From: a virus
Direction: 5' to 3' (one strand)
Length of the DNA stretch: 26,304 nt
Virus record (IMG/VR): IMGVR_UViG_3300030430_005318
Coordinates: 1 to 26,304 of that record
The first letter of the stretch is position 1. Each line of letters starts with the position of its first letter. This document shows, one piece after another, positions 1-14,058 of this stretch. A program made the position numbers and the translations under genes. The notes under the pieces were generated by a model. It saw only the letters and a program-made list of their open reading frames with translations. It searched no databases and was not told the DNA's origin.

Positions 1-1307
1 TCAAAGTGAAATGTTTTAATTTTTTTGTTGTCTCTTAATGCTTCGTTGAACACTGGACAAACATAAAACTCATTGTTAAATCTTACATTATTTTCAATCA
101 TTTGTTCAGCGTACTTAACATAGTCGGAGCCATGCTTCCAGTAATAAATGCCGGCAGTTGCTATGTCACTGATTGGTTTCTTCTCAGCAACTTCAGATAC
201 AAATCCTTGTTCATCAAGCTTGGCAAAACTCCATTTAGGGTGTGTAGCTGTAAAGGTAAGCATACCACCATCAACTTCGTCTGCCTCCATAGAATACATA
301 AACTCATTACTGTCCCAATCTAAAAACTGATCTGAGTTTGCAAAAATAAGCGGCTCATCATTATTAATAAACTCTTTAGCTAACAGCGTAGTGCATGCAG
401 CACCTTCTGTCATTCCATCGACCTGCACGATCTCACAACCGGGTGAAATTAAACTGAGAAGATGTTTTAAATTATATTTTTCGTAATGTTCTTTCTGTAC
501 CACAAAAATATGACGGGCATCAATATTCAAATTTTCTACGACAAGCTGAATCATAGGCTTGCCGTTAACCTCAATTAGTGGCTTAGGAAAGGTATATCCC
601 GCCTGTTGAAAGCGGGAGCCGGCTCCAGCCATGGGTATAAGAACGTTCATTTTGCCTCCTTGCCATTTAGGTCTTACGTTTTCTTTTTTATCCACTTTAT
701 CAATCGTTTCTTTAATTTTTTCATATGTAACATCACTGCTATTTTTTACAGCACAAAGGTGAGCGCCACTGTTGATTGCAGCCTTACGTCCGTGATGAGA
801 GTCTTCCACAACCACAGTCTCATGAGGGTCAACATTTGCTCTCAGCATGCATCTCATATAAATTTCAGCACTTGGCTTTGGCTTTGTAACATCTTGATTA
901 GAATAAAGAAAATCTATATGCTCAAAAAAGCCTCTCCTTATTAACTGTAACTTAGCAGTGTCTCTAATGGAATTTGTTGCACATGCAATCGTATATCCCT
1001 CAAGTTTAAGTTTCCTCAAAATCTTGATAATTCTATGATCATGATCAAAGTTATTAATGATCTCAATTGTTTTTTGTTGTTTAGCTTTCCAGATAGGAGT
1101 ATGAAATTCTTCCGGTAACCCTTTTCTTTCAGTAAGTATTTGTAATTTTTTTGTGGTCGATAAACCATCATACGTTGAAAGATGCTCTGCTCTATCAATA
1201 ATATAACACCTATCAATATCACCAAGAGCCATGTTTAAAGCCTGATAATGAAGTTCTCTAGCGTCTACGAGAACACCATCTAAATCAAATACAATTAGTT
1301 TAACCAT
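1..1307 (-). CDS. HAD phosphatase - sugar nucleotidyltransferase fusion (partial, cut by left edge)
   Basis: An open frame runs without a stop from an ATG at 1307 to the left edge (435 codons visible). Residues 1-219 form a HAD-superfamily hydrolase of the beta-phosphoglucomutase type: motif I DLDGV (D8, D10), motif II at about T111-N112, the motif III lysine region KPKPS at 142-146 and motif IV EDS at 168-170. From M220 follows a GT-A fold sugar-1-phosphate nucleotidyltransferase: GAGSRF at 228-233, then FPKPLI, and an NSDQ stretch that probably replaces the metal-binding DxD. A likely role is removing a phosphate from a sugar bisphosphate and activating the sugar phosphate as an NDP-sugar. 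An in-frame GGAGG stands just before the M220 codon (650), so the second domain may also be made alone. The start overlaps the end of the GT-A gene by 8 nt. The sugar specificity cannot be read from the sequence. Confidence 0.85.
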   Translation of the reverse strand, partial: MVKLIVFDLDGVLVDARELHYQALNMALGDIDRCYIIDRAEHLSTYDGLSTTKKLQILTERKGLPEEFHTPIWKAKQQKTIEIINNFDHDHRIIKILRKLKLEGYTIACATNSIRDTAKLQLIRRGFFEHIDFLYSNQDVTKPKPSAEIYMRCMLRANVDPHETVVVEDSHHGRKAAINSGAHLCAVKNSSDVTYEKIKETIDKVDKKENVRPKWQGGKMNVLIPMAGAGSRFQQAGYTFPKPLIEVNGKPMIQLVVENLNIDARHIFVVQKEHYEKYNLKHLLSLISPGCEIVQVDGMTEGAACTTLLAKEFINNDEPLIFANSDQFLDWDSNEFMYSMEADEVDGGMLTFTATHPKWSFAKLDEQGFVSEVAEKKPISDIATAGIYYWKHGSDYVKYAEQMIENNVRFNNEFYVCPVFNEALRDNKKIKTFHF

Positions 1308-2229
1308 CTCTAAACTTCTCCCCTTGTTTAAAAGGGTGCTTATCGATATCGTGCGCTGTATCGGTACCTATCCACAAATCACCCTTGCGCCAACCAACAT
1401 AATTCTTATCTGCTAACTCTATATCTTTTTCAAAATAGTAATATTGAACAAAGCTTGGCACTTTTGGAGGGCTAGGAGGATTTTCTACAAAGTCTTTTGA
1501 CCACCTTGTAAGCCACCCGTAATAGCTTGGTTGTTGTTTCCAAGTATCTTTCCATTTCCAATAAAATATTTGTGACGTGTGATACCACCCCTCATGGCTA
1601 ATATCATTTGTTTTCTCCTGCTTCCAATCTTCTTCACCGCCACGGTACTCACTAGTATCAAGCTCAAGAGCATCGTGTGCATTAAGCAAGCGTCCGTGAA
1701 CTCTGTCGTTAATTAACGAGTGCTCTTTGTTATAAATCAACGCACGAATATAATAATCAGCTTCTTTATTTGCGGGTGTCAGAAATCTTTCATCCCACAT
1801 GCCAATTTTTCTAACTGCTTCGGCCGTGTAGCTAACGATGTTATCACCAAGTTGACCGGTGACAAATGTATATTTTTGGTGCATCTTAAGCAAGTTAGTA
1901 GCCCAGTTAGGACTAAGAACAATATCATTTTGCATTGTAACCACAATCTTAGCATCTGGATTTTTTAAATCTTTAAAACCGTGCAGCAGTGCTTCATTCC
2001 AGTTGCGTGCTAAATTACCTGTATCCCAATCGGGTCTAGTATTATTATGTATTACATTTACTTTATCAACAAACTCAGGGCTTAATTCAAACTCGGAATG
2101 ATTATTTATTATATTAACTTCAGTATTAGGAATAGAAATAAAGTCAGTTTTATTAAAAAGTCTATCTAATGTTTCGTTTAACACATCGCTTCTTTTGTAT
2201 GTGGCTATAAAAATTTTTAAATTTTTCAT
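1300..2229 (-). CDS. GT-A family (GT2-like) glycosyltransferase
   Basis: The 309-residue protein starts with the GT-A nucleotide-binding strand (KIFIATYKRSDVLNETLDRL), followed by NIINN and, near residue 100, VTMQNDIVLSPNW, in the place where family 2 enzymes carry their DxD-type metal site. A later GMWDERFLTPANKEADYY stretch resembles the acceptor side and catalytic base region of that fold. No membrane segment or signal peptide is visible, so it should act in the cytoplasm. It overlaps the CMP-sugar synthetase gene at its start by 4 nt (ATGA) and the HAD fusion gene at its end by 8 nt, so all three are probably translated together. Donor and acceptor are unknown. Confidence 0.8.
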   Translation of the reverse strand: MKNLKIFIATYKRSDVLNETLDRLFNKTDFISIPNTEVNIINNHSEFELSPEFVDKVNVIHNNTRPDWDTGNLARNWNEALLHGFKDLKNPDAKIVVTMQNDIVLSPNWATNLLKMHQKYTFVTGQLGDNIVSYTAEAVRKIGMWDERFLTPANKEADYYIRALIYNKEHSLINDRVHGRLLNAHDALELDTSEYRGGEEDWKQEKTNDISHEGWYHTSQIFYWKWKDTWKQQPSYYGWLTRWSKDFVENPPSPPKVPSFVQYYYFEKDIELADKNYVGWRKGDLWIGTDTAHDIDKHPFKQGEKFRDG

Positions 2230-2894
2230 TTTTTTCTCATTTTTTCGTATAAAATTTCTGCTAACATAAACTCGTATTCTGTATCAACGTCTACAGCTTC
2301 TATTTCGTCCAACATATATGGATAAAACTTATCGCCCAGAATGTTCTTATTCTTAATCATAACCTCTCTAGGCAGTATGTTGGCGGCAAAATTAAGAGCG
2401 TAAATATCTGGTAAGTCCTGTGACCTTGGGTGATTCTTAGGATCATAATTAATTGCTTTACCATCCAGCCACATGTACTCTTTGATTACGTTTGTGGTAA
2501 CTACACAATCATAGTCTGTTTCACGTTTATAAATGTCTATGCATTCTTGTAAAGTCTCATCAGTAACCAGCGGGCTTGTTACGGGAGTCCATAAAATATC
2601 TTTACAATCCAAGCTAGAAGCAAGATGAACATACACATCACCCATGGGCACCGTATCACTAGCATAAAAAGGGTCTCTACGCATCGGATAAGCACCAAGA
2701 TCATTAGCAATCTCCAGCATATGATCATCGTCAGATGTGACCACTACTTTGTTAACATCGCGTAATTTTAGCGCCTGTTGTATTTTTAACGTCAACATAT
2801 TAGTGCCCCCAAAAGGTCTAATATTCTTACGTGGAACGCGCTTGGAGCCGCCTCTAACAGCGATTAAAACATTAATGTCAATATCTCTACTCAT
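2226..2894 (-). CDS. CMP-sugar synthetase (acylneuraminate cytidylyltransferase family)
   Basis: The 222-residue protein has the N-terminal signature of NeuA/PtmB/KdsB-type cytidylyltransferases: IAVRGGSKRVPRKNI at residues 11-25, which binds CTP. It also has VVTSDDDHMLEIA and ASDTVPMGDV in the expected order, and its length is normal for the family. The reaction would be CTP plus a nonulosonic acid (sialic, legionaminic or similar) giving the CMP-sugar and pyrophosphate. The gene lies directly behind an SDR gene (TAATG overlap), the same pairing as ptmA-ptmB in Campylobacter legionaminic acid synthesis. Two sialyltransferase-like proteins further up the cassette could use the product. I see no nonulosonate synthase (NeuB) in the window, so the acid would come from the host or from genes outside the window. 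The exact substrate is inferred. Confidence 0.85.
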   Translation of the reverse strand: MSRDIDINVLIAVRGGSKRVPRKNIRPFGGTNMLTLKIQQALKLRDVNKVVVTSDDDHMLEIANDLGAYPMRRDPFYASDTVPMGDVYVHLASSLDCKDILWTPVTSPLVTDETLQECIDIYKRETDYDCVVTTNVIKEYMWLDGKAINYDPKNHPRSQDLPDIYALNFAANILPREVMIKNKNILGDKFYPYMLDEIEAVDVDTEYEFMLAEILYEKMRKK

Positions 2895-3619
2895 TACAGT
2901 TGTCCCCCGTTCACATCAATTGCTGTACCAGTAATATATGAAGCAGCGCTTGAACACAAAAATAAAATAGGAGCCGCTTGTTCTGCAGGAGTTGCAATTC
3001 TTTTGATTGGTATTTTTTGTTCCAATTGGGCAATTGCCTGTTTTGACATTGACTCTTCTAGCATTTCAGTCATAGTTTGACTTGGACACACACAGTTAAC
3101 CAGTATGTTGTTCATTGATACTTCGTTTGCAAGTTGTTTAGTCAATCCGATAATTCCATATTTACTAGAAGTATAGTGTACACCACTAACAATACTCTTG
3201 TTTCTTCCAGCAATAGAAGACACATTTACTATTCTACCATAGTTTTGTTTTTTCATTAACATAACCGCTTGGCGACAAATTGCAAAAAATGATCTAAGAT
3301 TAATATTCATTACTCGATCCCACTCTGCAACATCGATATATTCTATCGGTTCGCAAAGATTTGTTCCAGCAACATTGATAACAAAATCTACACGATCAAA
3401 ATTAGAAAAAATGTTTTCTATGTCTTCTATTTTAAGCAAATCACACTTAAGGTCTGTGACTGAATCTAAGTTTGATGGAGTACGAGAGGCGTTATACACG
3501 ACAGCACCAGTTTCAGCAAACTGTCGGCATACTTCTTTTCCAATACCTTTGCTGCCACCAAATACTAAAACTACTTTGTTATTAAAATTAAACGCTATAT
3601 CATTCGTCTTCGTATACAT
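2894..3619 (-). CDS. Short-chain dehydrogenase/reductase (FabG/PtmA-like)
   Basis: A complete classical SDR of 241 residues. The cofactor motif GGSKGIG is at 21-27, NVAG at 82-85, the catalytic serine is in VNVSS (134-135) and the YxxxK pair is Y149/K153. The C-terminus has the usual ITGTAIDVNGGQL ending. It should oxidise or reduce a sugar hydroxyl or keto group with NAD(P)H. Sequence alone would suggest a FabG-type ketoreductase. Because the next gene is a CMP-sugar synthetase, a PtmA-like role in nonulosonate tailoring is more likely than fatty acid synthesis; this is inference from context. The start overlaps the cupin gene by 20 nt. Confidence 0.88.
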   Translation of the reverse strand: MYTKTNDIAFNFNNKVVLVFGGSKGIGKEVCRQFAETGAVVYNASRTPSNLDSVTDLKCDLLKIEDIENIFSNFDRVDFVINVAGTNLCEPIEYIDVAEWDRVMNINLRSFFAICRQAVMLMKKQNYGRIVNVSSIAGRNKSIVSGVHYTSSKYGIIGLTKQLANEVSMNNILVNCVCPSQTMTEMLEESMSKQAIAQLEQKIPIKRIATPAEQAAPILFLCSSAASYITGTAIDVNGGQL

Positions 3620-4031
3620 GATTCACATCTGGTCTTGTAATTGCATATCTAACACCGGGACCATCACCAACGCATTTAATGTGATGCCATGTATTTTTTG
3701 GAACTACAATAATATCATGTTGTTTCACACGTTGTGTTCCGATACCTTCAATCCACCATTCCCATTCGCCGTCAAGGATTACCCAGTTTTCATCTGCATC
3801 TGGGTGGAAATGTTTCCGATTACCCTCACCCGGTTGTTGTTGAATTACAACACCACCAAAAAGTTCGTTATAAGCAATTCTTGCAGCCCAAGAGCCCATT
3901 CCTAAATCATCACGTAATTCTTGTAAGTTTACAGTTGAGCAGTTCTCATACTTAACCAGTTCCGATTTTGGAACACCATCATTTTTTAACACGCTAACTA
4001 AGTCGCTGTCTGAATTTGTTTTTATTCCCAT
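3600..4031 (-). CDS. Cupin-domain protein
   Basis: The 143-residue protein ends in a single conserved cupin barrel. The first cupin motif lies around GEGNRKHFHPDADENWVIL (HxH-type ligands, then a Glu) with GEWEWW behind it. The second motif follows with DIIVVPKNTWHHIKC, in which the histidines are the expected metal ligands. Such small cupins occur in sugar-nucleotide clusters as isomerases or epimerases or as proteins without known activity. The gene begins with a TAATG overlap at the end of the double glycosyltransferase gene and runs 20 nt into the SDR gene. No substrate can be given. Confidence 0.8.
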   Translation of the reverse strand: MGIKTNSDSDLVSVLKNDGVPKSELVKYENCSTVNLQELRDDLGMGSWAARIAYNELFGGVVIQQQPGEGNRKHFHPDADENWVILDGEWEWWIEGIGTQRVKQHDIIVVPKNTWHHIKCVGDGPGVRYAITRPDVNHVYEDE

Positions 4032-5965
4032 TATCTTGTATCTCTTTTAAGTTTTGGAAGAGTTTTAAATCTTTCAATTCTACTGTCTAAATTTTCATCG
4101 TTCAGTAAGTTATTTACATGCTCATCAAAAATAAGTCTATCATCTTTCAACAAAACGTTTTTTAAATGCATAAGCTGTGACAGTTGATCATGAAGCAGTT
4201 TGTCTGGACCATAATTACGACCTTCTTCGCCATAAGTGTTAATATAAGATTGATTATATTTTTCTTTGTTTTGCTGCGGCTTTCCAATATTGTAAAAATC
4301 GAGACCAAAGACTTTTAATTGTTTGACCGGATAAGATAAAAGCATATTAATCGCACCGTACCCTGAATTAAAATTAGCAGTAAATGTAGTATAACTCCCT
4401 TTTCCAAATCTTTCAACATGAGATTTAGCATAAACTTGCCAATAAAGCGCCCAGCGCTCCCATTTACCATCATTTCTTTTTAAATTAACAAATGGAATCT
4501 GTAATTCTTTGAAAATTGGCTCAAATATATCATCATTAAAATACCAACCGGCTTGCCATTCTAGACCGCCTATTGGTTGCTCATGTCTTTTTTGTGCAGC
4601 GGCTGTGTCATTACATATAATAAACTTTGGTCTGTCTGATAAATCACTTGCCTTAATATGCTCAACTAACGGCATGCCATAATTTGGATTCAAACAACTT
4701 TGTATTATATCTGAGCGTGAGCCATATGATTCAGTATTGTAAATGTTGTGTTGAATTCTAACAACAACATCACATGAATCGATTTCAGCACCGTGTGTGT
4801 GGTTTGCTAAATAAGGTGCAGGACCAACTAGAGCAACAGTTTTATCTTTCAGATATTCCTCAAGTGAAGGATCTAATATGGAATTAGTGTGAAATAAAGA
4901 TTTATTATCACTTAATTTTTGATAATATTCAAGACACTCATTGTATGTAATCTTTCTTCCTTCAATTCTGCTGTTAATTTTATTGGCAATCTCTGGCCAA
5001 GGATCTAAAGGAGTTACAAAATCTTCAAATTGTAAACCTCTAAGTTCTTCATCAATTATTTTATTTGACTCATCTGAAAAGTTTGTTTGCTTTTCTTCAA
5101 GTGATAAATGTACATTTACAAACCTCTCATCATTTAAATCAAAAAATTTAGAAATCTTATCTAAGTCAAAGTAGTCAACATCATCTGGATTTTTTATGAT
5201 ATCGAAACTATTTTTTTCAAACAAACTAACAAAAAAATTCTTGACTTTTAATGAATCGTAATTTACATCAACACTAATATTCTCATCAATGTTTAATAAT
5301 TTTTTCTTTTTGAATGCTGGTAAAATTGATTTCCACATTTCGTCCATCTGATATTTTGTATATCCACCCTCACTATTATATGTTTGAGTGTCTTTACTAT
5401 CAGTTGGATTATTATGATGAACAATTTTATGACTGCAAACAACATTTCTTAAAAATGGTATTTCTTGAATGTTAAACATATGACAAGCATCGGTATCAGT
5501 TCGATGCTTAATAAACATCGGGAAGAACCACTGTAGTAGGCTTTTGTGTACAATCTTGATACCATTGTGAGTAAACGGTATGCAAGAATAATCTCTGCTT
5601 CTCAAAAAATTTAAATCTTGTGCGATTGGATTATCAATGCCGCGGCCGGGATAAAAAGTTAAAACAGCAGGATTAGATTCAAGATCTTTTAAAGTTTGTT
5701 CATATGCGTCTAATTCACCTTGTGGTTCGAGACCCATATCATAATCCATAAAAAAATAATAATCGTACTTTTTTGGCACCAGTTCAGCTAAAGTATTTCT
5801 AGTTTGTGACCAAATAGTATTAGGACAAAATTTAATAGCATCAGGGTTTTCTTCATCAAACGTAACAAAGTAAAAATCTGAGTGTTCTCTATTGTGAAAA
5901 AGCTTTACGTGCTCTGGATTGGGATCCTTTGGAGTTACTTGTAAGACGCAGAATCTTTTGTTCAT
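4031..5965 (-). CDS. Two-domain glycosyltransferase: GT-A-like N-terminus, GT29 sialyltransferase-like C-terminus
   Basis: I chose the ATG at 5965 (644 residues), which overlaps the preceding stop as ATGA; the in-frame codon at 5983 is only GTG. The N-terminal 225 residues look like a GT-A domain, with FFMDYDMG near 72-78 as the metal-binding DxD. A poorly conserved charged linker follows. The C-terminal part resembles the sialyltransferase (GT29) fold: ALVGPAPYL near 378, IDSCDVVVRIQHN near 395 and YGSRSDI near 414 match the order of the large sialyl motif, and a later FNSGYGAINMLL followed by VFGLDFYN fits the small motif. It would add two sugars in sequence, the second perhaps from the CMP-sugar made by the product of 2226-2894. 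The assignment is at fold level, and the acceptor is unknown. Confidence 0.72.
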   Translation of the reverse strand: MNKRFCVLQVTPKDPNPEHVKLFHNREHSDFYFVTFDEENPDAIKFCPNTIWSQTRNTLAELVPKKYDYYFFMDYDMGLEPQGELDAYEQTLKDLESNPAVLTFYPGRGIDNPIAQDLNFLRSRDYSCIPFTHNGIKIVHKSLLQWFFPMFIKHRTDTDACHMFNIQEIPFLRNVVCSHKIVHHNNPTDSKDTQTYNSEGGYTKYQMDEMWKSILPAFKKKKLLNIDENISVDVNYDSLKVKNFFVSLFEKNSFDIIKNPDDVDYFDLDKISKFFDLNDERFVNVHLSLEEKQTNFSDESNKIIDEELRGLQFEDFVTPLDPWPEIANKINSRIEGRKITYNECLEYYQKLSDNKSLFHTNSILDPSLEEYLKDKTVALVGPAPYLANHTHGAEIDSCDVVVRIQHNIYNTESYGSRSDIIQSCLNPNYGMPLVEHIKASDLSDRPKFIICNDTAAAQKRHEQPIGGLEWQAGWYFNDDIFEPIFKELQIPFVNLKRNDGKWERWALYWQVYAKSHVERFGKGSYTTFTANFNSGYGAINMLLSYPVKQLKVFGLDFYNIGKPQQNKEKYNQSYINTYGEEGRNYGPDKLLHDQLSQLMHLKNVLLKDDRLIFDEHVNNLLNDENLDSRIERFKTLPKLKRDTR

Positions 5966-6936
5966 TTTAATTCTCTTGACCACCGGTCAATCATTTCTTC
6001 AAGCATACTTTCAAAAGTATATTCAGGTTCCCATCCAAGTAATTCTCTTGCTTTAGAGGGATCACCCTTTAAGTATTTAAGTTCTTCGGGTCGCATATAT
6101 TTTGGATTTTGAACAATATAATCTTCATAATTCATATCAAGTTTGTCAAACACTACCCTACAAAGATCTCTAACTGAATGCGTCTCTCCTGTAGCCACTA
6201 TAAACTCGTCTGGAGTGTCGTGATTGATAATTGAGTGCATAGCTCTAACATAGTCTTTAGAATGTCCCCAGTCGCGATATGAGTCCATATTTCCTAACTC
6301 TAGCTTATCCATCAGACCATACTTGATTGACACAGCGCCTTTTACAACTTTATTGGTTACGAAGTTAGAGCCACGGCGGGGTGATTCGTGATTAAAAAGA
6401 ATACCGTTGCAAGCATGCAAGCCGTAAGCATTGCGGTAGTGCCTGACTAAATTATATCCCATAACTTTGGCACAGCCGTAAGGACTAACTGGGTTCATTG
6501 GTGTTGTTAATCTTTGGACTCCATCGTCATCAACAGAATTACCAAACATCTCTGATGATGATGCTTGATAAAACTTTGCTTCAGGGCACTCTGTTCTGTA
6601 AACTTCAAGCAAATGCAAAACTCCAAGTGCATTAGTTTTAATTGTAAACGATGGCATATCAAAGCTAATACGAACATGGCTCATAGCAGCTAAATTATAA
6701 ATCTCATCGGGCTGTACCTCTTTAACAATTCTAGCAATTGAAGGATAATCCAGCATATCTCCGTAAAAACCCTTTACTTCTTTATTTAAGCCATGCAGTC
6801 GGTAGTTTTGATTCTCAGCAACTGAGTGTCTGCGGAACATACCATAAACATCATAACCTAAAGAAAGCAAATATTCTGATAAATAGCTGCCGTCTTGACC
6901 GCCAATACCTGTGATTAACGCTGTTTTCTTGCTCAT
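5962..6936 (-). CDS. gmd: GDP-mannose 4,6-dehydratase
   Basis: The 324-residue protein is an extended SDR with the GMD signature: TALITGIGGQDGSYLSEYLL at the N-terminus, then GMFRRHS, SSSEMFG and the catalytic YGCAK. The segments NHESPRRGSNFVTNKV and GNMDSYRDWGHSKDYVRAM are typical of GDP-mannose dehydratases. The enzyme converts GDP-D-mannose to GDP-4-keto-6-deoxy-D-mannose with bound NADP. It is a little shorter than most bacterial enzymes (about 345-370 residues) but has all the core motifs. The product is the precursor of GDP-fucose, GDP-rhamnose and GDP-perosamine. The DegT-family gene directly upstream suggests the amino-sugar branch. GMD genes are known from other marine phages. Confidence 0.95.
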   Translation of the reverse strand: MSKKTALITGIGGQDGSYLSEYLLSLGYDVYGMFRRHSVAENQNYRLHGLNKEVKGFYGDMLDYPSIARIVKEVQPDEIYNLAAMSHVRISFDMPSFTIKTNALGVLHLLEVYRTECPEAKFYQASSSEMFGNSVDDDGVQRLTTPMNPVSPYGCAKVMGYNLVRHYRNAYGLHACNGILFNHESPRRGSNFVTNKVVKGAVSIKYGLMDKLELGNMDSYRDWGHSKDYVRAMHSIINHDTPDEFIVATGETHSVRDLCRVVFDKLDMNYEDYIVQNPKYMRPEELKYLKGDPSKARELLGWEPEYTFESMLEEMIDRWSRELK

Positions 6937-7523
6937 TTAAAAATCTCCATTTTTGATAAATCTGGCCAGTCTTCAACTGTCCACTGCTTAGGTGGTGTAC
7001 TAATAGCTTCAGGAAGCTTTTTAATACCAAGTGCAGCAGTTTCGGGGGTCATGTAATAATGATAACCAAATGTTTTTATATTTTGTTCTCTCCATGGTAT
7101 ATCAGGGCTTCTACCATCGTAGCTCATCTTTTTAAGTCTATCTGCTGCAGATTTATTGTCAGTCAATATCATGCCACCACGACCAAGACTTAAATGCTTT
7201 CTATATTGAAAGCTCAGGCACATGAACGTTCCTGATATGTAAGAGTTCTCTTTCCATAATACAGCAGCATCAATGATATTTGTACCGCCCAGATAATAAT
7301 AATCTTTCCAGTCCTCATTACGCCAATTAAAAGCAATATTAAGCTTATGTGCTAAAAATGGAACTGAGATATACGTTCTTTTCGGCACTGTAAACATTGA
7401 AATATTTTGTTCTCTCAGGCACAATTCTATTCCGTGTGTGCAACAATCCACAGCTACAGCATATGGAGAGCCAAAAAAGTCTGCAATTTGCTGTTCAAAT
7501 GTTTTTATATCGTCAAAACTCAC
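6933..7523 (-). CDS. Short DegT/DnrJ/EryC1-family aminotransferase, truncated
   Basis: I place the start at GTG 7523, which overlaps the upstream stop as GTGA and has GGGAGG at 7531-7536, 7 nt away; this gives 196 residues. The fold is that of PLP-dependent sugar aminotransferases: AVDCCTHGIELCLRE is the cofactor phosphate-binding helix, NIIDAAV carries the Asp that pairs with the PLP nitrogen, and QYRKHLSLGRGG carries the Schiff-base lysine (K109). The family is normally 360-400 residues long. Here the protein stops soon after TPETAALGIKKLPE, so most of the small C-terminal domain is missing. With GMD next door, GDP-perosamine formation is the obvious guess, but activity of such a short version is doubtful unless it dimerises differently or has a partner. 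Confidence 0.75.
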   Translation of the reverse strand: MSFDDIKTFEQQIADFFGSPYAVAVDCCTHGIELCLREQNISMFTVPKRTYISVPFLAHKLNIAFNWRNEDWKDYYYLGGTNIIDAAVLWKENSYISGTFMCLSFQYRKHLSLGRGGMILTDNKSAADRLKKMSYDGRSPDIPWREQNIKTFGYHYYMTPETAALGIKKLPEAISTPPKQWTVEDWPDLSKMEIFK

Positions 7524-8074
7524 TTGGTTGCCTCCCAATTTTGCATAATATGTATTCCGTTTTCTTTATCCATGTGAGGATAGTATGATTGACTTTGATC
7601 ATCATATTCTGCATGTATTGAATTTTTCCAATCGTATGGTTCAATTGTTTGAAAACCTACCTCTTTTAAAACACCTAAGAGCTTTGTTTGCGTGTAAACA
7701 GAAGTATGGTAAACTTTATCAGTGCCAAGATCATCATTATTTACATAAATTCTACCATACATTGGTCCAATGATTTTGTCAATATTTTTATCATATTTAT
7801 TGTACACTTCTAAAAGCTTATCAAAATCAACAGTTGAAATTCTAAGAACTCCTCCAGTTTTTAAAATACGATACCATTCAGTTAATGCCTGAACGCCTTG
7901 CTGAAAATCAAAATATTGAAACAATGCACTAGCATAAATTAAATCAACACATTCATCAGTAAACATGTTTAAGTTTGTAACATCTGTAGATATATGAACA
8001 TGTGGATCTTTATTAATATCTACATTAATAAAGCCGGATATATCGGTGCGGCCGCAACCTAGATTAAGTTTCAT
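7520..8074 (-). CDS. Class I SAM-dependent methyltransferase
   Basis: The 184-residue protein starts with the SAM-binding motif I of Rossmann methyltransferases (LNLGCGRTD), followed by the acidic strand 2 motif (INVDIN), a VDLIYASALFQYF motif IV/post-I segment and an ILKTGGVLRIS segment. This arrangement is typical of the Methyltransf_11 type that methylates sugars or small molecules. It sits between a second methyltransferase gene (ATGA overlap) and the aminotransferase gene (GTGA overlap), so O- or N-methylation of the sugar made here is plausible. The substrate is unknown. Confidence 0.88.
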   Translation of the reverse strand: MKLNLGCGRTDISGFINVDINKDPHVHISTDVTNLNMFTDECVDLIYASALFQYFDFQQGVQALTEWYRILKTGGVLRISTVDFDKLLEVYNKYDKNIDKIIGPMYGRIYVNNDDLGTDKVYHTSVYTQTKLLGVLKEVGFQTIEPYDWKNSIHAEYDDQSQSYYPHMDKENGIHIMQNWEATK

Positions 8075-8700
8075 TTAATTAATCCCTCAACTACAAACAT
8101 GCTCGATCTACCAACTCTTTTCATTAAATCAGAATCATATTTTAAAAGTTCTTTCGGCAGTAAATCATTTCCATAATCATAAGTCCTGCCATATCTTTTA
8201 AATTCAAGACCAGCTTTAGATATCATGGACTCCCAAAACTCTGGTGTTTCAAATCTGGTGCCGTCACCCTCGTCATCAGTGCATTCTCTTAAGCAATTTG
8301 GAACATCAAATATTATTTTTTTACACTTCTCAGCTTGTATCAATAAAATATCAAGAATCTCAGAATCACAAAAATGTTCTAGTACTCCTTGGTGTATAAT
8401 TGTATCGTAAAATTTAGTGTATGTTTGGCGTTTAAGTATATCTCCAACATAAAGACTGTTTTTTAAGTGCGGATATCTGTCTCCGGTTTGTTTGACTGCT
8501 ATTTCTTCAAGATCAAAGCCGGTTATATTAAAGTCTAAATCTCTTAACAGTTCTGTTGTTGTGCCAAATCCAAAACCAGCTTCCAGTATACTACCACCTT
8601 TTTTTGTGTGGTCTATAATACATTGTATAAACTGCTCTTGTATAATAGCACTACGAAATAACGTAAACCTTTTTTCGTTAAGCCAGTTATCCCAAGCCAC
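8071..8700 (-). CDS. Class I SAM-dependent methyltransferase
   Basis: The start is GTG at 8700, one base after the preceding stop, with a GGAGAG site about 7 nt upstream. The 209-residue protein has SAM motif I (ILEAGFGFGTTTELL), an acidic strand 2 end (ITGFDLEEIAV) and a HQGVLEHF motif like those of Methyltransf_25/UbiG-type enzymes. It differs clearly from the neighbouring methyltransferase, so the pair is not a recent duplication. A role in methylating a cassette sugar is inferred from context only. Confidence 0.85.
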   Translation of the reverse strand: MAWDNWLNEKRFTLFRSAIIQEQFIQCIIDHTKKGGSILEAGFGFGTTTELLRDLDFNITGFDLEEIAVKQTGDRYPHLKNSLYVGDILKRQTYTKFYDTIIHQGVLEHFCDSEILDILLIQAEKCKKIIFDVPNCLRECTDDEGDGTRFETPEFWESMISKAGLEFKRYGRTYDYGNDLLPKELLKYDSDLMKRVGRSSMFVVEGLIK

Positions 8701-8701
8701 T

Positions 8702-9121
8702 TTACTCTCCTATAAAATCTTTATCTGCTGATTGTCCGTAATAAGGTCCAGTTTTGTACTCAAGAACTAAAGTGTTATCTTCTAAAATTCTATAATTGTG
8801 TCCACCAAATAAAGTAATTGATAGGTCACCAGCCTCTAAAATCCTTGTTTCAACAATAGTATCATCTAAATCGTAGAATATAGCCTCAACTTTTCCAGTC
8901 ATCACAACCCACGATTCTTGAGCTATTGCTTGACTAGGAACTGGCTTATAAATATGTTTATGAGGCTTAAAAGTCTTACCTTTATTAAAGTTTAATATAG
9001 CAAGTTGCAGATATTCTTCTTCTTCTACGATATCATTTCTCACATCTTTAAGTTCTGCAGGTCTACACACAATATGCAAAAGCTTATTCTTCTCAACATT
9101 AGAATAAATCTTATCAAACAT
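8702..9121 (-). CDS. Cupin-fold protein (WxcM/WbuC-like)
   Basis: A 139-residue protein with a beta-rich cupin core. FKPHKHIYKP provides histidine ligands, QESWVVMTGKVEAIFYD is the conserved Glu-plus-glycine turn of the first motif, and AGDLSITLFGGHNYRIL is the second motif with its histidine. Small cupins of this kind appear in O-antigen clusters as sugar isomerases or as companions of cupin-type epimerases. It is distinct from the cupin encoded at 3600-4031. The start overlaps the preceding stop (TAATG). The function is unassigned. Confidence 0.72.
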   Translation of the reverse strand: MFDKIYSNVEKNKLLHIVCRPAELKDVRNDIVEEEEYLQLAILNFNKGKTFKPHKHIYKPVPSQAIAQESWVVMTGKVEAIFYDLDDTIVETRILEAGDLSITLFGGHNYRILEDNTLVLEYKTGPYYGQSADKDFIGE

Positions 9122-9813
9122 TATAAAGCTAGTGCCTCTTCCAAACTCATTTTTTTAAAGCAGTTCAAATTTGATACTGGACTACAATTAACAACCTCAA
9201 TATTATTCCAAATTGCACGATAAGCAAAATAGTTCCAAGTGGGCAGGTGCAAATCTAAACCTCTAGGCACATTATATTCGTCACCTTCTTGCTGGTAATC
9301 AGCAAACCAGTAATTTGGATTTTCATCGGGTGTTTTTTCCATTTTTAAGCCGGGTCCATCACGAACACAACCATCTACAAATTCAACATAATTGCAATCA
9401 ACACCTAAGAGGATAATTCTTTCATATCCTAAACAAACAGCGGTAGAGCAAGCATTAGCTCCAGAGTTTCCATTATCATTGAACTCGACAAAATCATCAG
9501 TGTTATTATTCCATTTATTCATACTACCAAATGGCTGTAGATTCACATACTGAAACCCTTCTGAATCACTAATATCTTTTACATAAAAACATTTTTCAAT
9601 TGGTGTATTGTCAATTAAATTTTCAAAACTCTCCCTATGATTAAGGGTAACTCTAAAATCATAACAGCCGTGATATTTCGGCCACCAATCCATTCTTTCG
9701 TAAGCTCTATAAGCTGAGTTAAGCCCAAAGGTATCAAAACCCCTAAGCATTTCAAAATCAACATCTTTAAGCGATGGACCGTTTCCCATAACAACAATAG
9801 TTTTTTTACTCAT
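9121..9813 (-). CDS. Sialyltransferase-like / DUF115-like glycosyltransferase
   Basis: The 230-residue protein begins with a strand-glycine motif, IVVMGNGPSLKDVDFEML, followed by FDTFGLNSAY, which closely recalls the start of Campylobacter CstI/CstII sialyltransferases (GT42) and also DUF115 proteins. Further on, SGANACSTAVCLGYERIILLGVDCNY matches the second conserved region of these folds. It is also similar in layout to the C-terminal half of the protein encoded at 4031-5965. It would use a CMP-activated sugar in the cytoplasm. GT42 and DUF115 cannot be separated by eye; the latter includes flagellin pseudaminate/legionaminate transferases (Maf), which would also fit a nonulosonate donor. 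Confidence 0.68.
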   Translation of the reverse strand: MSKKTIVVMGNGPSLKDVDFEMLRGFDTFGLNSAYRAYERMDWWPKYHGCYDFRVTLNHRESFENLIDNTPIEKCFYVKDISDSEGFQYVNLQPFGSMNKWNNNTDDFVEFNDNGNSGANACSTAVCLGYERIILLGVDCNYVEFVDGCVRDGPGLKMEKTPDENPNYWFADYQQEGDEYNVPRGLDLHLPTWNYFAYRAIWNNIEVVNCSPVSNLNCFKKMSLEEALAL

Positions 9814-10693
9814 AATGACTCCAAAATGCTTTTACTCTTGAGCGCATATGTTCAACTGTTGACTCTTTAGTAGCAAACCATTCCTCATTCTGATGTTGAA
9901 CATAATCACTTAAAATAAGATCGCAACCTAAAATTTTTGCTTCAATCACAAGCCTTGGGCATGTATCAAATCCAAGTGGTTGAAAAATCAAACCTTTAGA
10001 TGTTGAGAGTTTAATTAATAATTCATGATAAGGCAAGCCTTTAATTATTTCATACTCTAAATTATTCTCTTTAGCGTATTTTACACAACCTTGTGTGTTT
10101 TTAATTGGAAAATCAGAACCTAAAATTAAATATTTTTCGTCTTTTTTGTTATCTTTTATAGATTCAATAAAGTCTAAGTCGCGCCTATCAAATACAGAAC
10201 TTAACACTCTACAATTTTCTTCTTTAAGTGTCTTAATATTTTCTAAAAAGTACTGTCGCTGCGCATCACTCATAAACCAGACATTTTTAGCGTAGCTATA
10301 AAAAGCGGCATTTAATTTTCCACTGACTCTTTCAGCACAATCACAGTCTTTGCCTTCTGCAAGCTTGTGTATTTGTGGTGACCGATAATCACATAGTTTA
10401 TAATCATATTCTAATATTGAATAAGATATATTCTTGCAGAAAAATATTTTATGCTCGTCTTTAAGATAATGAAAATTACCAACTATGAAATGCACATTTT
10501 TATATTTTTCTAATACGTTAAGGCTTAATTCTTCAGAAATTAGTTTACCCAGAACAAAATCTTTACCACCAGTTTTTTCAATAATGTGTTCAATACCACC
10601 ATCAAATAGTGCTGATGTAGTAAACTCTGCTCCACCTTGAAAGTGTTCTGAGAAAGCATCTGCAAGAAATATGTATTTTATTTCTTTTTCCAC
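9806..10693 (-). CDS. GT-B-like glycosyltransferase (GT4-type), short
   Basis: The start is GTG at 10693, two bases after the preceding stop, and there is no strong ribosome site, so it may rely on coupled translation. The 295-residue protein begins IKYIFLADAFSEHFQGGAEFTT, the GGAE loop of GT4 acceptor domains. It has a second Rossmann start (KYLILGSDFPIKNTQG) and the donor-site region LIFQPLGFDTCPRLVIEAKILGCDLILSDYV, equivalent to the E-x7-E region of GT4 enzymes. It is shorter than the 350-430 residues usual for the family. It overlaps the next gene by 8 nt. Substrates are unknown. Confidence 0.7.
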   Translation of the reverse strand: MEKEIKYIFLADAFSEHFQGGAEFTTSALFDGGIEHIIEKTGGKDFVLGKLISEELSLNVLEKYKNVHFIVGNFHYLKDEHKIFFCKNISYSILEYDYKLCDYRSPQIHKLAEGKDCDCAERVSGKLNAAFYSYAKNVWFMSDAQRQYFLENIKTLKEENCRVLSSVFDRRDLDFIESIKDNKKDEKYLILGSDFPIKNTQGCVKYAKENNLEYEIIKGLPYHELLIKLSTSKGLIFQPLGFDTCPRLVIEAKILGCDLILSDYVQHQNEEWFATKESTVEHMRSRVKAFWSHYE

Positions 10694-10695
10694 GG

Positions 10696-11961
10696 TTACA
10701 TTAAGTCCGCCAAAAGCTCATCGACTTCTTCCTTGATGGCTTCTGTTTTGATTTCACCAGTAAAAGACTTCACAAACATTTCGTGCATTTTTTCTTCAGA
10801 AAATTGTTCTCTTAATTGTGATGATCTATCACAAGCACCATGTGCAATACTATCTTCGTTCTTGTTTATAATATCTTCGTAACATGTTCTCATTTGCTCT
10901 CTAGCCGATTGTTCTCTTGCGGCACACCATCCTGCTGTTTGTTCAATAACATCCTTCCAGACAGCTTCTGGGGGGACTTGAACCATGTCATATGAGACTT
11001 CATAGAAGTGTGCTTTACCATCTTCATCATAAAGGAAGTCTTTTTGTCCAGACCAGCCAACTGATACAACCGGCAAACCACTGTAAGACGCCTCAAAAAT
11101 AGGCAATCCAAAGCCTTCACCGTGAGGTAAGGCTACAAATGCACTAACTTTATCATGTAAGTATAAACTGTGCATTTCCTCTTCAGTCATATGACCATGC
11201 AGTAAGTGAACAGAGCACTTGCGTTCTGGAACATTTGCAGAATTAATAATTTGTCTAATATTATTCATGCATGTTTCTCTATCAATTAGACAATTTTTTG
11301 CAACGTTTGTTTTAACAATCATACCAACCTCTTCATCTTTAAATTCATTTAAAAACCAGTTGATTGTATTTTCCAAATTTTTACGAGGTCCAAATTGTGC
11401 AACTACAAGGAAGTTAAAATCGTGTTTCAAATTTAATTCTAGCTCTGGTAATTCCTCAAAAGTCTTAACTGGATAATTCACAGTAAATAAATCTCTCTGA
11501 TTTCTTAAAGTACCTGTAACTTCTCCTGTTTGATTGTTTTGAACTTCAAAAGCAGTAGAATCCATAATCTCTCTTGAATGGTTAGAGACTACAATATTAC
11601 GATTCATTCCATTACATTTTTCAATCCACAGTGCAGCACAGTGGGTGGTTTCAATACCTGCTGTATAACCAACATTTTCCCTAGCAATTACTTGAAACTC
11701 ATTTGGTATAGTAACCTGTAAAGACATATCGAATTGACCACCTTGTTGCATGTAAGCAATTGTTTTTTCAATTGTTTCATCAATCCATCGGCGCTCTTCG
11801 TTATCCTCAGTCATCCATGATGTGTGACCCCAAGTTATCGGCCGAATATAAATATCGAACAAATCCTCTCTACTTCTCAAAGATCTAAGAGCAAAACGTG
11901 CTTGTTCTCCATAGCCGCTTCTCGTAAGAAGTGGTCCAACTAATAATACGCTTTTTTTCAT
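10696..11961 (-). CDS. GT-B glycosyltransferase, family 4-like
   Basis: I place the start at ATG 11961 (421 residues). It overlaps the upstream stop as ATGA and has GGAGG just before it; a second ATG at 11982 lacks such a site. The N-terminal domain has LLVGPLLTRSGYGEQARFALRSL (the glycine-rich acceptor loop). The donor domain begins near FNFLVVAQFGPRKNLENTI and carries ALPHGEGFGLPIFEASYSGLPVV, the E-x7-E region of GT4 transferases. It is a retaining transferase without a membrane segment. The protein from the neighbouring gene is a paralogue of similar length, suggesting two consecutive linkages in one glycan. Confidence 0.88.
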   Translation of the reverse strand: MKKSVLLVGPLLTRSGYGEQARFALRSLRSREDLFDIYIRPITWGHTSWMTEDNEERRWIDETIEKTIAYMQQGGQFDMSLQVTIPNEFQVIARENVGYTAGIETTHCAALWIEKCNGMNRNIVVSNHSREIMDSTAFEVQNNQTGEVTGTLRNQRDLFTVNYPVKTFEELPELELNLKHDFNFLVVAQFGPRKNLENTINWFLNEFKDEEVGMIVKTNVAKNCLIDRETCMNNIRQIINSANVPERKCSVHLLHGHMTEEEMHSLYLHDKVSAFVALPHGEGFGLPIFEASYSGLPVVSVGWSGQKDFLYDEDGKAHFYEVSYDMVQVPPEAVWKDVIEQTAGWCAAREQSAREQMRTCYEDIINKNEDSIAHGACDRSSQLREQFSEEKMHEMFVKSFTGEIKTEAIKEEVDELLADLM

Positions 11962-13241
11962 GCTACCTCCATCAAGTGCCATCTGTCATAATTTTTTCTT
12001 GTTTCCCAAGAACCAGATTCTTCAATAACTCTGTCAAAAAATTCAATCCAAGATTTTTCAAAAGTTTCAAAATTAAAGTTATCTTTTACGTGTTGAACGC
12101 ATTTATCAGATAATTCTAAATACTTTTTCTTGCTTAGTTTTAATGCTTTGTTTAATGTTGCTTCAAAATCTTTTTGAGAAATTCTATCTTCGTAGATGTA
12201 GGGCACCTGTAGTGAGCCAATAATAGTCTTTGAAGTAGGCTTAATTCCCCAGCCAAACCAATTTGAACCGTCAGTAACCTGATCTTGTAGACCACCTGTC
12301 ATGTTCACAATAATTGGAGTTCCACACGACATTGATTCAAGTGTCGATAAACCAAAGCCTTCAGCATCAGAGATATTAATTGTATAATCAGCAGCATTAT
12401 ACATCACTGAAAGTTCTTGAGCACCAACTTTTGTAGTCGAAAGCAATATTTGACCTTGATTAAGACCCAAATGTTGTAAAATATGAGGTAAGTCTTGTCC
12501 ATGTGGGTCTTGAGCATCAGTGTGCATCAATAGCATTGCTTTGTCGTGACCAACCTTATCAAGCCATTCTTTGAACCACCATATAAGAGTTCCAGACTGT
12601 TTACGTCTTGCGTTTCTATTATTCCAAAAGAACACCTTTTTTCTTGGATTATTGTAAACATTACTAGAATTTATTAGATTAGACCTAATGTTTCTTACTT
12701 TTTGTAAGTTTTCTGCGTCTGTATATCTCTTAAAAAATGTAGGATTAACAGCATGCGGTATGTGTGCAGCAAACGAATCTGGTGACGCAGTGCTAACAAT
12801 TTTTTCTGTAACCTTTGATATCGACACAACATAGTCAGTTGAATCATAAAATTGTTTATTATACATTGGTACTGGGAAATTGTCCCAAACATGATAATAA
12901 ACCATAGGGACCAAAGCTCTGACTTCGTCTTCCATTTGCCAAAGCCATTCATAAAATCTTGGGTCTGTCATAAACCAAAGCACATCTGGCTTCTCTTTTC
13001 TCAGAACTGATCTAATAGTTTCATCATTTCCGTAATTGTCAACTGGTATAACAACAAAATCATCACCCCATGGTTCTACTTTTTGTGGTGTGTAGTCAGC
13101 ATGCTTTATTGCTCCACCTAAGCAAACAAATTTATATCTTCCGGTTTTTAAAAGTGCTTCAATCATATATTTTGTCTGTGTACCCACACCGGAAGGTGAG
13201 AGAGGATGATCAGACAAAACTAAAATTTTATGTTTTTTCAT
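11958..13241 (-). CDS. GT-B glycosyltransferase, family 4-like
   Basis: The 427-residue protein has a GT-B layout: ILVLSDHPLSPSGVGTQTKYMIEALL at the N-terminus, VSKVT-type linker sequences, then a donor domain with KVFFWNNRNARRKQSGTLI and SDAEGFGLSTLESMSCGTPIIV, the classical E-x7-E motif. It is the first gene of the sugar cassette, 7 nt behind the nuclease gene, with an AGGA site about 6 nt before the ATG. No separate promoter is obvious, so the promoter near 14030-14058 may drive the whole cassette. Donor and acceptor are unknown. Confidence 0.88.
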   Translation of the reverse strand: MKKHKILVLSDHPLSPSGVGTQTKYMIEALLKTGRYKFVCLGGAIKHADYTPQKVEPWGDDFVVIPVDNYGNDETIRSVLRKEKPDVLWFMTDPRFYEWLWQMEDEVRALVPMVYYHVWDNFPVPMYNKQFYDSTDYVVSISKVTEKIVSTASPDSFAAHIPHAVNPTFFKRYTDAENLQKVRNIRSNLINSSNVYNNPRKKVFFWNNRNARRKQSGTLIWWFKEWLDKVGHDKAMLLMHTDAQDPHGQDLPHILQHLGLNQGQILLSTTKVGAQELSVMYNAADYTINISDAEGFGLSTLESMSCGTPIIVNMTGGLQDQVTDGSNWFGWGIKPTSKTIIGSLQVPYIYEDRISQKDFEATLNKALKLSKKKYLELSDKCVQHVKDNFNFETFEKSWIEFFDRVIEESGSWETRKNYDRWHLMEVA

Positions 13242-13248
13242 TTATTCC

Positions 13249-14010
13249 TCAAGGACAGTGTTCTGTCTTATAAAACTTACAACCATATCCACCAGTACAG
13301 GATAACCTGTTTTTGATGTATCGTTGATTTTTAATATTGTACAGCGCGGTGTTTAAAAGTTTAAGAGCATTCTCTGTTTTTTTAGGTCCGCTTGTAACTC
13401 TAAAAAATTCTACATTGTTTTTCTTAGCTGTACGTTTAAGTAGTGCAAAGTGAGTTTCTACGTCTTTTGGATCAATGTCCATTTTTTGACAAAAGAAGTG
13501 TTTGTACAAAGTTAATTGATATGTCACCATTTTGTCACTTTTCTTACGTGAGTCCCAACCCCAAGAGCAGGTCTTCCAATCAAAAATATGAACCTTGCCA
13601 TCAGGGGTGGCTACCACAGCATCGATGTATCCTTTAAATAATTTATCCTCACCTTCAATTGGCTCATACAGTGGCATTTCAACAGCTAAGACCTCAAACT
13701 CTTCAAAGTATTCAGAAAGTGCATCGTCAATTTCTGGAATAATATTTCCACCTTGCTTCATCATTTGATGAACAAGCTTGTTGTCTACATCATCTTCAAG
13801 TTCTGCAATGTTCTTTTTAAGTTCTTTTACAAAAAAGTCCTCTTCAATTTCTTCATTGAGTAATTTTTTCTCACATACAGAGTGAATAGCAGAACCGAAT
13901 GCTGTATATTCATTACCGGTAAAGCCATCAATGCCATCAATGCGAGTGAGCTTGTGGTAAAAAGCACAAAAACTCCAATCTTTAAGTTCGGAGTAAGAAA
14001 TATGAGACAT
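13249..14010 (-). CDS. PD-(D/E)XK nuclease, Cas4/RecB-like, with probable Fe-S cysteines
   Basis: The 253-residue protein has the motif series of the RecB/Cas4 nuclease family: H43 (AIHSVCEKK), D130 in GYIDAVV, D144-W-K146, and Q165-x3-Y169 (the QxxxY motif). These should form the metal-dependent active site. Cysteines C15, C238, C244 and C252 have the one-plus-three arrangement that holds a [4Fe-4S] cluster in Cas4 and AddB, although the spacing C-x5-C-x7-C differs from the usual. A role as a phage exonuclease in recombination or host DNA breakdown is likely; there is no CRISPR array in the window, so a Cas4 role is not supported. A promoter lies just upstream. Confidence 0.85.
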   Translation of the reverse strand: MSHISYSELKDWSFCAFYHKLTRIDGIDGFTGNEYTAFGSAIHSVCEKKLLNEEIEEDFFVKELKKNIAELEDDVDNKLVHQMMKQGGNIIPEIDDALSEYFEEFEVLAVEMPLYEPIEGEDKLFKGYIDAVVATPDGKVHIFDWKTCSWGWDSRKKSDKMVTYQLTLYKHFFCQKMDIDPKDVETHFALLKRTAKKNNVEFFRVTSGPKKTENALKLLNTALYNIKNQRYIKNRLSCTGGYGCKFYKTEHCP

Positions 14011-14029
14011 AATAATACCTTTTTAATTT

Positions 14030-14058
14030 AATGTAACAGGTCTAGTAATAATTGTCAA
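14030..14058 (-). promoter_or_regulatory. Sigma70-type promoter before the nuclease gene
   Basis: On the minus strand TTGACA (14053-14058) is followed after 17 bases by TACATT (14030-14035; 4 of 6 to TATAAT). The -35 box overlaps the last codons of the metallopeptidase gene. The nuclease ATG is about 20 bases after the -10 box. It may also serve the sugar cassette behind it. Confidence 0.6.

Follow-up and report, generated by a model that had tools for sequence, protein, structure and literature searches.

A 26,304-base stretch of viral DNA, which is the whole of IMG/VR virus record IMGVR_UViG_3300030430_005318 (hereafter, the window), carries on its minus strand a conserved, selected operon that encodes putative activated-sugar enzymes together with six glycosyltransferase-type proteins, and no lipid-carrier or flippase genes were found with it. 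We tentatively interpret this operon as a phage cassette for glycan assembly, in which two donor pathways would supply a set of transferases, the acceptor would most likely be a virion protein, and the outer sugars would be changed by recombination. Both donor pathways and the capping by sialyltransferase-type enzymes, as described below, are predicted from protein family and fold.

The initial annotation of the window had described 13 kb of minus-strand sugar and glycosyltransferase genes. Open reading frames (ORFs) and domain matches bear this out, with 14 complete minus-strand genes at positions 1300-13241 and a HAD-nucleotidyltransferase gene at 3-1307 that is cut at the window edge. The cassette genes and the nuclease gene that borders them are as follows.

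3-1307, minus strand: HAD phosphatase and NTP-transferase fusion, cut at the edge (PF13419, 92.7 bits; PF00483, 45.8 bits; phrog_3980/29467)
1300-2229, minus strand: GT2 glycosyltransferase (PF00535, 28.1 bits, above cut-off)
2226-2894, minus strand: putative CMP-sugar synthetase of ulosonate type (PF02348, CTP_transf_3, 55.4 bits, above cut-off)
2894-3619, minus strand: SDR oxidoreductase adjoining the CMP-synthetase (PF13561, 157.5 bits)
3600-4031, minus strand: cupinA (PF07883, Cupin_2, 45.8 bits)
4031-5983, minus strand: GT650, a 650-residue protein with putative GT-A and GT29-like domains (by profile and fold)
5962-6936, minus strand: GMD, of the GDP-mannose 4,6-dehydratase family (PF16363, 373.5 bits, above cut-off; TIGR01472, 360.9 bits, cut-off 415)
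6933-7538, minus strand: miniDegT, a half-length DegT-type sugar aminotransferase (PF01041, 65.3 bits)
7520-8074, minus strand: methyltransferase MT1, in the four-gene core (PF08241, 31.6 bits)
8071-8700, minus strand: methyltransferase MT2 (PF08241, 24.5 bits), found in 5 of the 97 contigs compared below
8702-9121, minus strand: cupinB, 139 residues, cupin-like by eye, in the core (no Pfam match)
9121-9813, minus strand: GT42-like sialyltransferase, 230 residues (PF01973, 33.9 bits, cut-off 34.6; PF06002, 25.1 bits, cut-off 25)
9806-10693, minus strand: X295, a probable GT-B glycosyltransferase of 295 residues (by reading of the sequence; no Pfam or PHROG match)
10696-11982, minus strand: GT4a glycosyltransferase, cassette anchor (PF00534, 29.3 bits; phrog_2170)
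11958-13241, minus strand: GT4b glycosyltransferase, cassette anchor (PF00534, 44.4 bits; phrog_2170)
13249-14010, minus strand: PD-(D/E)XK nuclease, a conserved cassette border at an equal position in relatives (PF12705, 52.3 bits)

The content thus comprises six glycosyltransferase-type proteins, nucleotide-sugar enzymes, two cupin-type proteins and two methyltransferases. Five of the six transferases named in the initial annotation are supported by domain, profile or fold, whereas X295 was recognized by eye only; likewise, one of its two cupins has a Pfam match (cupinA), whereas cupinB was assigned by eye. Residues H54, H56, E69 and H108 of cupinB are invariant across 25 aligned sequences. 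Searched against the PDB, a cupinB profile picked up for the most part CRP-type chains and designed repeat proteins, and we judged these matches to be due to chance. With gene starts set mechanically at start codons, 12 of the 14 junctions within the cassette overlap by 1-25 bases, whereas at the remaining two the genes stand 1 and 2 bases apart.

A second IMG/VR contig, G001 (97,459 bases), is colinear with the window and is 96.7% identical to it over positions 1-19332, 92.7% over 19414-24295 and 91.2% over 24509-26304. In G001 the whole cassette occupies approximately 17.7 kb and 21 genes (19.9-37.6 kb), 15 of which lie in the window, one of them cut. Past the left window edge it extends about 4.5 kb further, with six more genes in G001:

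TylF-type methyltransferase (PF05711)
sulfotransferase-type protein (PF03567)
152-residue GDPD-like protein (labeled by eye, no Pfam match)
HpcH/HpaI aldolase (PF03328)
SIS protein with a HAD-like tail (SIS, 22.3 bits, cut-off 25; tail by eye)
NAD epimerase (PF01370)

After the NAD epimerase gene comes a gp55-like sigma gene (labeled by eye, no Pfam match), followed by a region of large genes that includes gp25 (PF04965) and, below cut-off, a baseplate-J-like protein. On the other side of the cassette are PhoH, DUF6267, UvdE, HNH, tRNA and tmRNA genes. Because gp25 and baseplate-type genes lie on one side and this latter set on the other, the cassette-bearing genome is that of an uncultured, marine T4-like phage, in keeping with the phage setting proposed earlier. 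Mis-binning of bacterial DNA as viral might be argued from the occurrence of a core block of the cassette in bacteria (see below), but it is contradicted by the phage genes on both flanks of the 97-kb contig and by retention of the cassette in other viral contigs, and is hardly credible.

For comparison, we used 97 contigs, consisting of G000-G007 and 89 loci (86 from IMG/VR and 3 from GenBank phages), with loci on the same contig merged or left out. These contigs were chosen by likeness to miniDegT or GT42 and include near-duplicates (G000/G001, L020/L021/L022, L044/L046 and L095/L102). Because our home-made models were built from these same contigs, they score the contigs that went into them too high. 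Deposited phages were searched as 50,697 records, with a tblastn threshold of E<=1e-5. Window positions 1-13400 had no megablast match among these records. A tblastn result of zero does not prove absence, because a KdsB-type gene of phage S-SCSM2R escaped tblastn and was recovered with the family model.

The gene order is kept among relatives as PhoH-zincin-PD(D/E)XK-GT4b-GT4a-X295-GT42-cupinB-MT-miniDegT-GMD-GT650, continuing with (cupinA-SDR)-CMP synthetase-GT2-HAD/NTP-TylF-GDPD-HpaI-SIS/HAD-epimerase-gp55. It is retained in G001-G004 despite local losses and small rearrangements, and in L007 and L088 as far as these loci reach. Of the 97 contigs, many of which end before that part, 10 contain HpaI and 13 contain SIS-HAD. 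Between G000 and G001, the ratio of non-synonymous to synonymous substitution rates (dN/dS) lies at 0-0.062 for each of the 15 cassette genes in the window and at 0-0.053 for five neighboring phage genes, and the differences summed over the cassette genes are 359 synonymous versus 40 non-synonymous. The cassette is under strong purifying selection. Whether phage lipopolysaccharide (LPS) clusters are functional or filler was left open for cyanophages in 2010 (PMC3037559). A cassette serving as filler DNA for headful packaging, or surviving as a functionless relic, is contradicted by the selection test and the kept gene order, and we regard it as highly improbable.

No membrane segment was found in the cassette proteins, whose maximum 19-residue hydropathy is 1.42, compared with 2.53-2.85 in six bacterial proteins that were picked by eye to serve as membrane controls. 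Among the plus-strand ORFs of G001 (>=60 residues), only three, of 2427, 1385 and 105 residues, exceed 1.8. Family models for Polysacc_synt (Wzx type), NeuB (PF03102) and Bac_transf (the sugar-phosphate initiator) matched in none of the seven records G001-G007, which are perhaps fragments, and were positive in 13, 9 and 10 of the 14 control genomes, respectively. The flippase, polymerase or initiating transferase expected of a bacterial O-antigen or capsule locus was not found, the Wzy and ABC families being judged by hydropathy in G001 only. An export set with O-antigen genes beyond the left edge, which would have pointed to a bacterial locus, was looked for and not found, in agreement with the earlier claim that export genes are missing.

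This lack does not single out a virion protein as the acceptor, because a chain made by the phage could leave the cell through the Wzx/Wzy of the host. The cassette may instead remodel the host O-antigen or capsule by adding sugars to host lipid-linked precursors, which host Wzx/Wzy or ABC systems would export, and thereby block rival phages or grazers. Such remodeling is the published reading for P-SSM2 (PMC2984593), pelagimyophages (PMC7029224) and jumbo cyanophages (PMC7824862), and we consider it a serious possibility, only slightly less favored than a virion-protein acceptor. Against it, the seven records contain neither a flippase family nor one of initiating sugar-phosphate transferases, and the cassette has no membrane protein.

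The first donor pathway would consist of GMD, miniDegT, MT1 and cupinB, which may make a GDP-linked 6-deoxy-amino-type sugar. MiniDegT has 201 residues, about half of full length, its solved relatives having about 360-390. Its predicted structure (pLDDT 93.5, pTM 0.90) matched sugar aminotransferases in Foldseek, including a GDP-perosamine synthase (E=1.9e-10, TMt 0.39). Lys114 and Asp90 are invariant across 25 aligned sequences (L028 and L043 were removed from this alignment for a stop codon, L031, L084 and L004 were removed alongside them with no such fault seen, and L019 was trimmed at its start), and Lys114 aligns with a lysine of perosamine synthases that we take to be the pyridoxal phosphate lysine. 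The DegT-type aminotransferase of the initial annotation therefore holds as to family (PF01041) and not as to length. With an aminotransferase of half length, the GDP-perosamine pathway proposed with it is only partly borne out; GMD belongs to the expected family, with TIGR01472 below its cut-off.

A miniDegT scan of viral contigs gave 96 relatives, of which 80 were kept, and bacterial and archaeal genomes yielded 18 loci. In eight of the 18 (L120, L121, L122, L124, L125, L126, L131 and L132, with Neomarinimicrobiota, Prochlorococcus, alphaproteobacteria and Altibacter labels), cupinB, MT1, miniDegT and GMD are adjacent in that order. By these eight loci, the four-gene core is common to phages and to bacterial loci that resemble surface-polysaccharide loci. 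In L131, on a 380-kb contig, the core has two strongly hydrophobic neighbors, judged by eye to resemble Wzy and WecA, which speaks for remodeling of the host surface. L125, which was binned as Altibacter, looks like phage by eye and contains the core block together with GT29-like, SIS-HAD-like and CMP-synthetase genes. Among the deposited phages, tblastn gave 7 matches for miniDegT, 238 for GMD and 10 for GT4b.

The second donor would be a CMP-linked ulosonate. The initial annotation had read the SDR and CMP-synthetase genes as the ptmA-ptmB layout of a nonulosonate pathway, which is unsupported because no NeuB was found in the seven records and the synthetase falls below the cut-off of PseF, its best curated model (98.2 bits, cut-off 205.7). 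Present instead are an HpaI-type aldolase and a SIS protein, and the HpaI, SIS-HAD and CMP-synthetase genes occur in all four of G001-G004. HpaI-type aldolases couple pyruvate to aldehydes. By this chemistry, an aldose made by the SIS and HAD parts could be joined to pyruvate, perhaps oxidized by the SDR, and activated with CTP. Together, SIS-HAD, the HpaI aldolase, SDR, cupinA and the CMP-synthetase suggest a route to CMP-ulosonate by pyruvate aldol addition rather than by NeuB. The two sugar types of the initial annotation are then both represented, as an amino-sugar-type block and a CMP-ulosonate-type block.

In the synthetase, S17, R19, K23, N24, Q159-D160-L161, D202 and D204 are invariant in 15 aligned sequences, the window's included, although seven of these are merely 27-32% identical to the window's. 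The HpaI protein lies above the Pfam cut-off and far under the curated HpaI cut-off (104.1 versus 368.8). In L093 the synthetase is fused to a cupin, with a class-III aminotransferase gene next to it, and L099 is alike by its labels. Another phage contig, L017, has KdsD-, KdsA- and KdsB-type genes after GMD (11603-14589). Its KdsA exceeds the cut-offs of two equivalog models (PRK05198, 344.7 of 242; TIGR01362, 332.2 of 314), its KdsB exceeds that of one subfamily model (221.4 of 193) and its KdsD-type protein exceeds none; a CMP-Kdo route is likely there. Relatives would fill the ulosonate role by differing gene sets, KdsD/KdsA/KdsB in L017 and SIS-HAD/HpaI in G001-G004.

Deposited phages gave a single tblastn match for the CMP-synthetase, in a Moritella contig, two for HpaI, in unannotated Staphylococcus records, and eight for SIS-HAD, each spanning about one third of the protein. 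A bacterial source of SIS-HAD was sought in three sets, giving only weak SIS-only matches in 2 of 4 genomes, none in 385 genomes of the class of G008 (E<=1e-15, no positive control), and matches to the SIS part alone in 3 of 291 genomes of the class of G009. One of those three, L145 (7123-10251; the class with the Prochlorococcus centre), has consecutive SDR, PseF-like, AroB-like and SIS-type genes, which may encode a further route of ulosonate type. The GT650 profile matched in none of 281 genomes (E<=1e-10, no positive control) and the GT42-like profile in 1 of 367. Given this thin sampling, the SIS-HAD, GT650 and GT42-like scans do not show a phage-only origin.

Two cassette proteins are candidates for adding the ulosonate. 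A profile of 16 sequences of the 230-residue GT42-like protein matched CstII chains with E=1e-6 (profile positions 4-140), and the protein matches phrog_4603, "alpha-2,3-sialyltransferase", with E=5.9e-18. By sequence, it is therefore homologous to CstI/CstII over the N-terminal part that the alignments reach. In deposited phages it had four tblastn matches at 24% identity; one of these relatives, in a Klebsiella phage (LR881104, 2327-2869), is annotated there as a "structural protein" and in another record as a sialyltransferase.

For the 650-residue protein, no Pfam or PHROG match was found, and tblastn gave no relative among the deposited phages. A profile of 12 sequences had seven weak PDB matches, six of which were GT29 sialyltransferases (best E=0.05). 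The predicted structure (pLDDT 78.8, pTM 0.70) matched human ST8SiaIII (E=8.7e-5) and ST6Gal1 (9.7e-5) in Foldseek, with TMt of 0.42-0.43. With VIA-align, model residues 324-624 aligned with rat ST6Gal1 (Z 12.3, rmsd 3.9, 222 residues) and residues 2-194 with GalNAc-T2 (Z 12.9, rmsd 3.9, 184 residues); the top row was a mannosyltransferase (Z 13.1) with a range reaching residue 533. On the basis of these Foldseek and VIA-align matches, we read the model as two joined domains, one of GT-A type and one GT29-like.

By hidden Markov models built here, a CMP-synthetase is present in all 19 contigs with the GT29-like domain, whereas only 4 of the other 78 have one, in a contig set that is biased and contains near-duplicates. 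One synthetase match (L028), in a 411-residue protein that begins like GT2, may be false. Fisher P values for this association overstate the case, because the contigs were picked by likeness and include near-duplicates. The pairing also occurs in L018 and L044/L046, which have other gene orders and no GT42 gene.

The outer and inner parts of the cassette differ in how they follow the phage backbone. In a test with 14 contigs (L020, L021, G001 and L087 left out), protein distances of PD(D/E)XK, GT4b, GT4a and HAD/NTP follow those of PhoH (Spearman 0.79-0.87), whereas those of X295, GT42, cupinB, miniDegT, GMD, GT650, cupinA, SDR, CMP-synthetase and GT2 correlate with PhoH weakly or not at all (0.03-0.40). 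Over this test and a 16-contig version (L020 and L021 left out), GT4b, GT4a and HAD-NTP give 0.79-0.88. In the 16-contig version, the GMD correlation is unreliable, because at least one row of that set is 22% identical and probably not GMD.

Exchange of the interior can be seen directly in the pair L094 and L102. Their DNA is 93.2% identical through the last bases of GT42 and 91.7% identical again from within the GT29-like domain. Between these points one allele has cupinB-MT-miniDegT-NDP-sugar dehydrogenase-epimerase-GT650 and the other C-methyltransferase-cupin-MT-cupinB-miniDegT-GMD-GT650. Protein identity is 94-99% in the flanks and only 33% for cupinB, 39% for MT1, 68% for miniDegT and 52% for GT650. 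This swap is one event in one allele pair among three informative close groups. The genes for the sugar are replaced along with the GT-A domain, and the comparison therefore suggests that the GT-A domain of GT650 uses the sugar made by the swapped block. The difference between L094 and L102 therefore names a sugar-setting block and its probable user enzyme, so that donor and transferase become testable as pairs.

Taken together, GT4b and GT4a would build the base of the glycan on a constant cytoplasmic acceptor, for which a virion protein is the most likely candidate; GT650 would add the GDP-sugar by its GT-A domain, and the GT29-like domain and the GT42-like enzyme would add the ulosonate as outer caps. 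Recombination would alter the outer sugars, like serotype switching. A virion-protein acceptor is slightly favored over host O-antigen, in that it fits the soluble-only enzymes, the carrier-free precedents and the anchor transferases, which track the backbone and have co-located relatives in a Flavobacterium phage; these last two properties of the GT4 pair would be odd if it had to fit variable host precursors. The sequence does not decide between the two acceptors. The more specific proposal, namely that phages cap their own particles by both GT29 (animal-type) and GT42 (bacterial-type) enzymes with an ulosonate from a NeuB-independent aldolase and switch the glycan by block exchange between near-identical phages, is unlikely as a whole. 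If virions turn out to be ulosonate-capped, phages would have coat serotypes much like bacteria.

Several observations weigh against a virion glycan or its predicted parts. Besides the possible use of host Wzx/Wzy, the occurrence of the core in bacterial loci of surface-polysaccharide type fits a role at the host surface, and the interior sugar genes are exchanged and variable, as in O-antigen loci. The interior also keeps a weak backbone signal, since in the 16-contig test only 19 (miniDegT), 20 (SDR) and 47 (cupinB) of 2000 permutations reach the observed correlation (68 for GT42), and SIS-HAD correlates with PhoH at 0.90, on five contigs only. The GT29 call is weak from the sequence alone, and the cassette contigs G002, G003 and L091 have a CMP-synthetase and GT42 but no GT29-like match. 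The SIS part reaches no curated cut-off and its HAD tail was seen by eye; the roles of HpaI, SIS and SDR are assigned from family only. Finally, the cassette could not be linked to the virion genes of G001 by a late promoter of T4 type. The motif TATAAATA has five plus-strand copies there, none of which, by eye, marks the start of a structural gene, and it therefore cannot time the cassette.

DNA had also been proposed as an acceptor, with glycans protecting it against restriction as in T4 glucosylation. DNA glucosylation is among the reported roles of phage glycosyltransferases (PMC12619734), but the thymidylate-synthase-type (dCMP hydroxymethylase) family PF00303 is absent from the cassette-bearing records G001-G004, and from G005 as well (0 of 5, perhaps fragments), while it is present in G006 and G007. 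Two donor pathways and sialyltransferase-type enzymes would also exceed the needs of base glucosylation, and we consider this acceptor very unlikely.

Other features were seen next to the cassette. A zincin-like small protein (14042-14746), with a sub-threshold match to a metalloprotease family (16.9 bits, cut-off 27.4), adjoins the nuclease in relatives too. It is followed in the window by UV-damage endonuclease UvdE (17581-18510, 196.9 bits), three tRNA genes (18870-20176; Thr(tgt) and two Asn(gtt)), a minus-strand tmRNA gene (21457-21791; Rfam RF00023, 125.1 bits) with the tag peptide ANNNLHFQQRLAA, and a DUF6267 protein (24074-26119) with a C-terminal cytidylyltransferase-like domain. DUF6267 relatives occur in 469 deposited phage records, mostly of cyanophages but including phages of Pelagibacter and Methylophilales. 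In G001 at 2835-4582 (L103), four consecutive ORFs have MKLLLENWR at their start or contain it, possibly a common leader, and other short ORFs show an LKQxIxEE-like start by eye. The labels gp32, FtsH, LexA, Wzy-like, WecA-like, GDPD-like, HAD tail and gp55 were given by eye only.

Phage surface-glycan clusters of the P-SSM2 type are already known, and the cassette is a variant of them, with glycosyltransferase and nucleotide-sugar genes clustered within a T4-like phage genome. The cyanomyoviruses P-SSM2, S-SSM7 and S-SM2 carry LPS gene clusters (PMC3037559, PMC2984593), which likewise hold many sugar genes in T4-like marine phages and, in P-SSM2, lie near phoH and tRNAs. In contrast to the window, none of these three genomes has a CTP_transf_3 CMP-sugar synthetase. 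Jumbo cyanophages have sugar clusters with cupins and epimerases that are polymorphic between related viruses (PMC7824862), and kdsA and kdsB are among marine viral genes (PMC10653327). An environmental marine viral genome encodes Gmd, WcaG, ManC, NeuA, KdsA and WaaG (PMC5332604), and so resembles the window in combining Gmd with a CMP-sialate-type synthetase; it has KdsA where the window's phage has an HpaI-type aldolase, and sialyltransferase-type enzymes are not mentioned in the part of that paper drawn on here. We found no report of a phage GT29-type enzyme or a phage HpaI-type ulosonate route in the portions of the literature covered, which leave subscription journals largely outside.

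Two cultured relatives, S-SCSM2R (Synechococcus WH7803) and Immutovirus (Flavobacterium LMO8), make the acceptor question testable. Synechococcus phage S-SCSM2R (PQ898602) shares miniDegT (54% identical) and many glycosyltransferases with the window. Its annotated KdsA and KdsB genes adjoin (L156, 15919-17340), with miniDegT elsewhere, and KdsB is a CTP_transf_3 match; unlike the window, it has no GT29-like or GT42-like match within 196-244 kb of its 244 kb. Flavobacterium Immutovirus (MW353176) has, by annotation, the PD-(D/E)XK nuclease at the cassette border, followed by relatives of GT4b and GT4a (196 and 181 bits; GT4b tblastn E=3e-52), and also a mini-DegT, but its interior differs and its genome contains no CTP_transf_3 gene.

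Beyond these phages, mycobacteriophages have virion glycans (cited in PMC12619734). Maf/FlmG flagellin glycosylation resembles our proposal in that Pse, Neu5Ac or Kdo is transferred to protein in the cytoplasm and without a carrier (PMC7591256), with Maf placing Neu5Ac or Kdo on Ser/Thr (cited in the same paper), whereas the window's GT42-like protein is single-domain. Similarly, chloroviruses and mimiviruses glycosylate their virions autonomously, with viral nucleotide-sugar pathways and glycosyltransferases (PMC4691112), although they are eukaryotic viruses and are compared here by kind of gene only.

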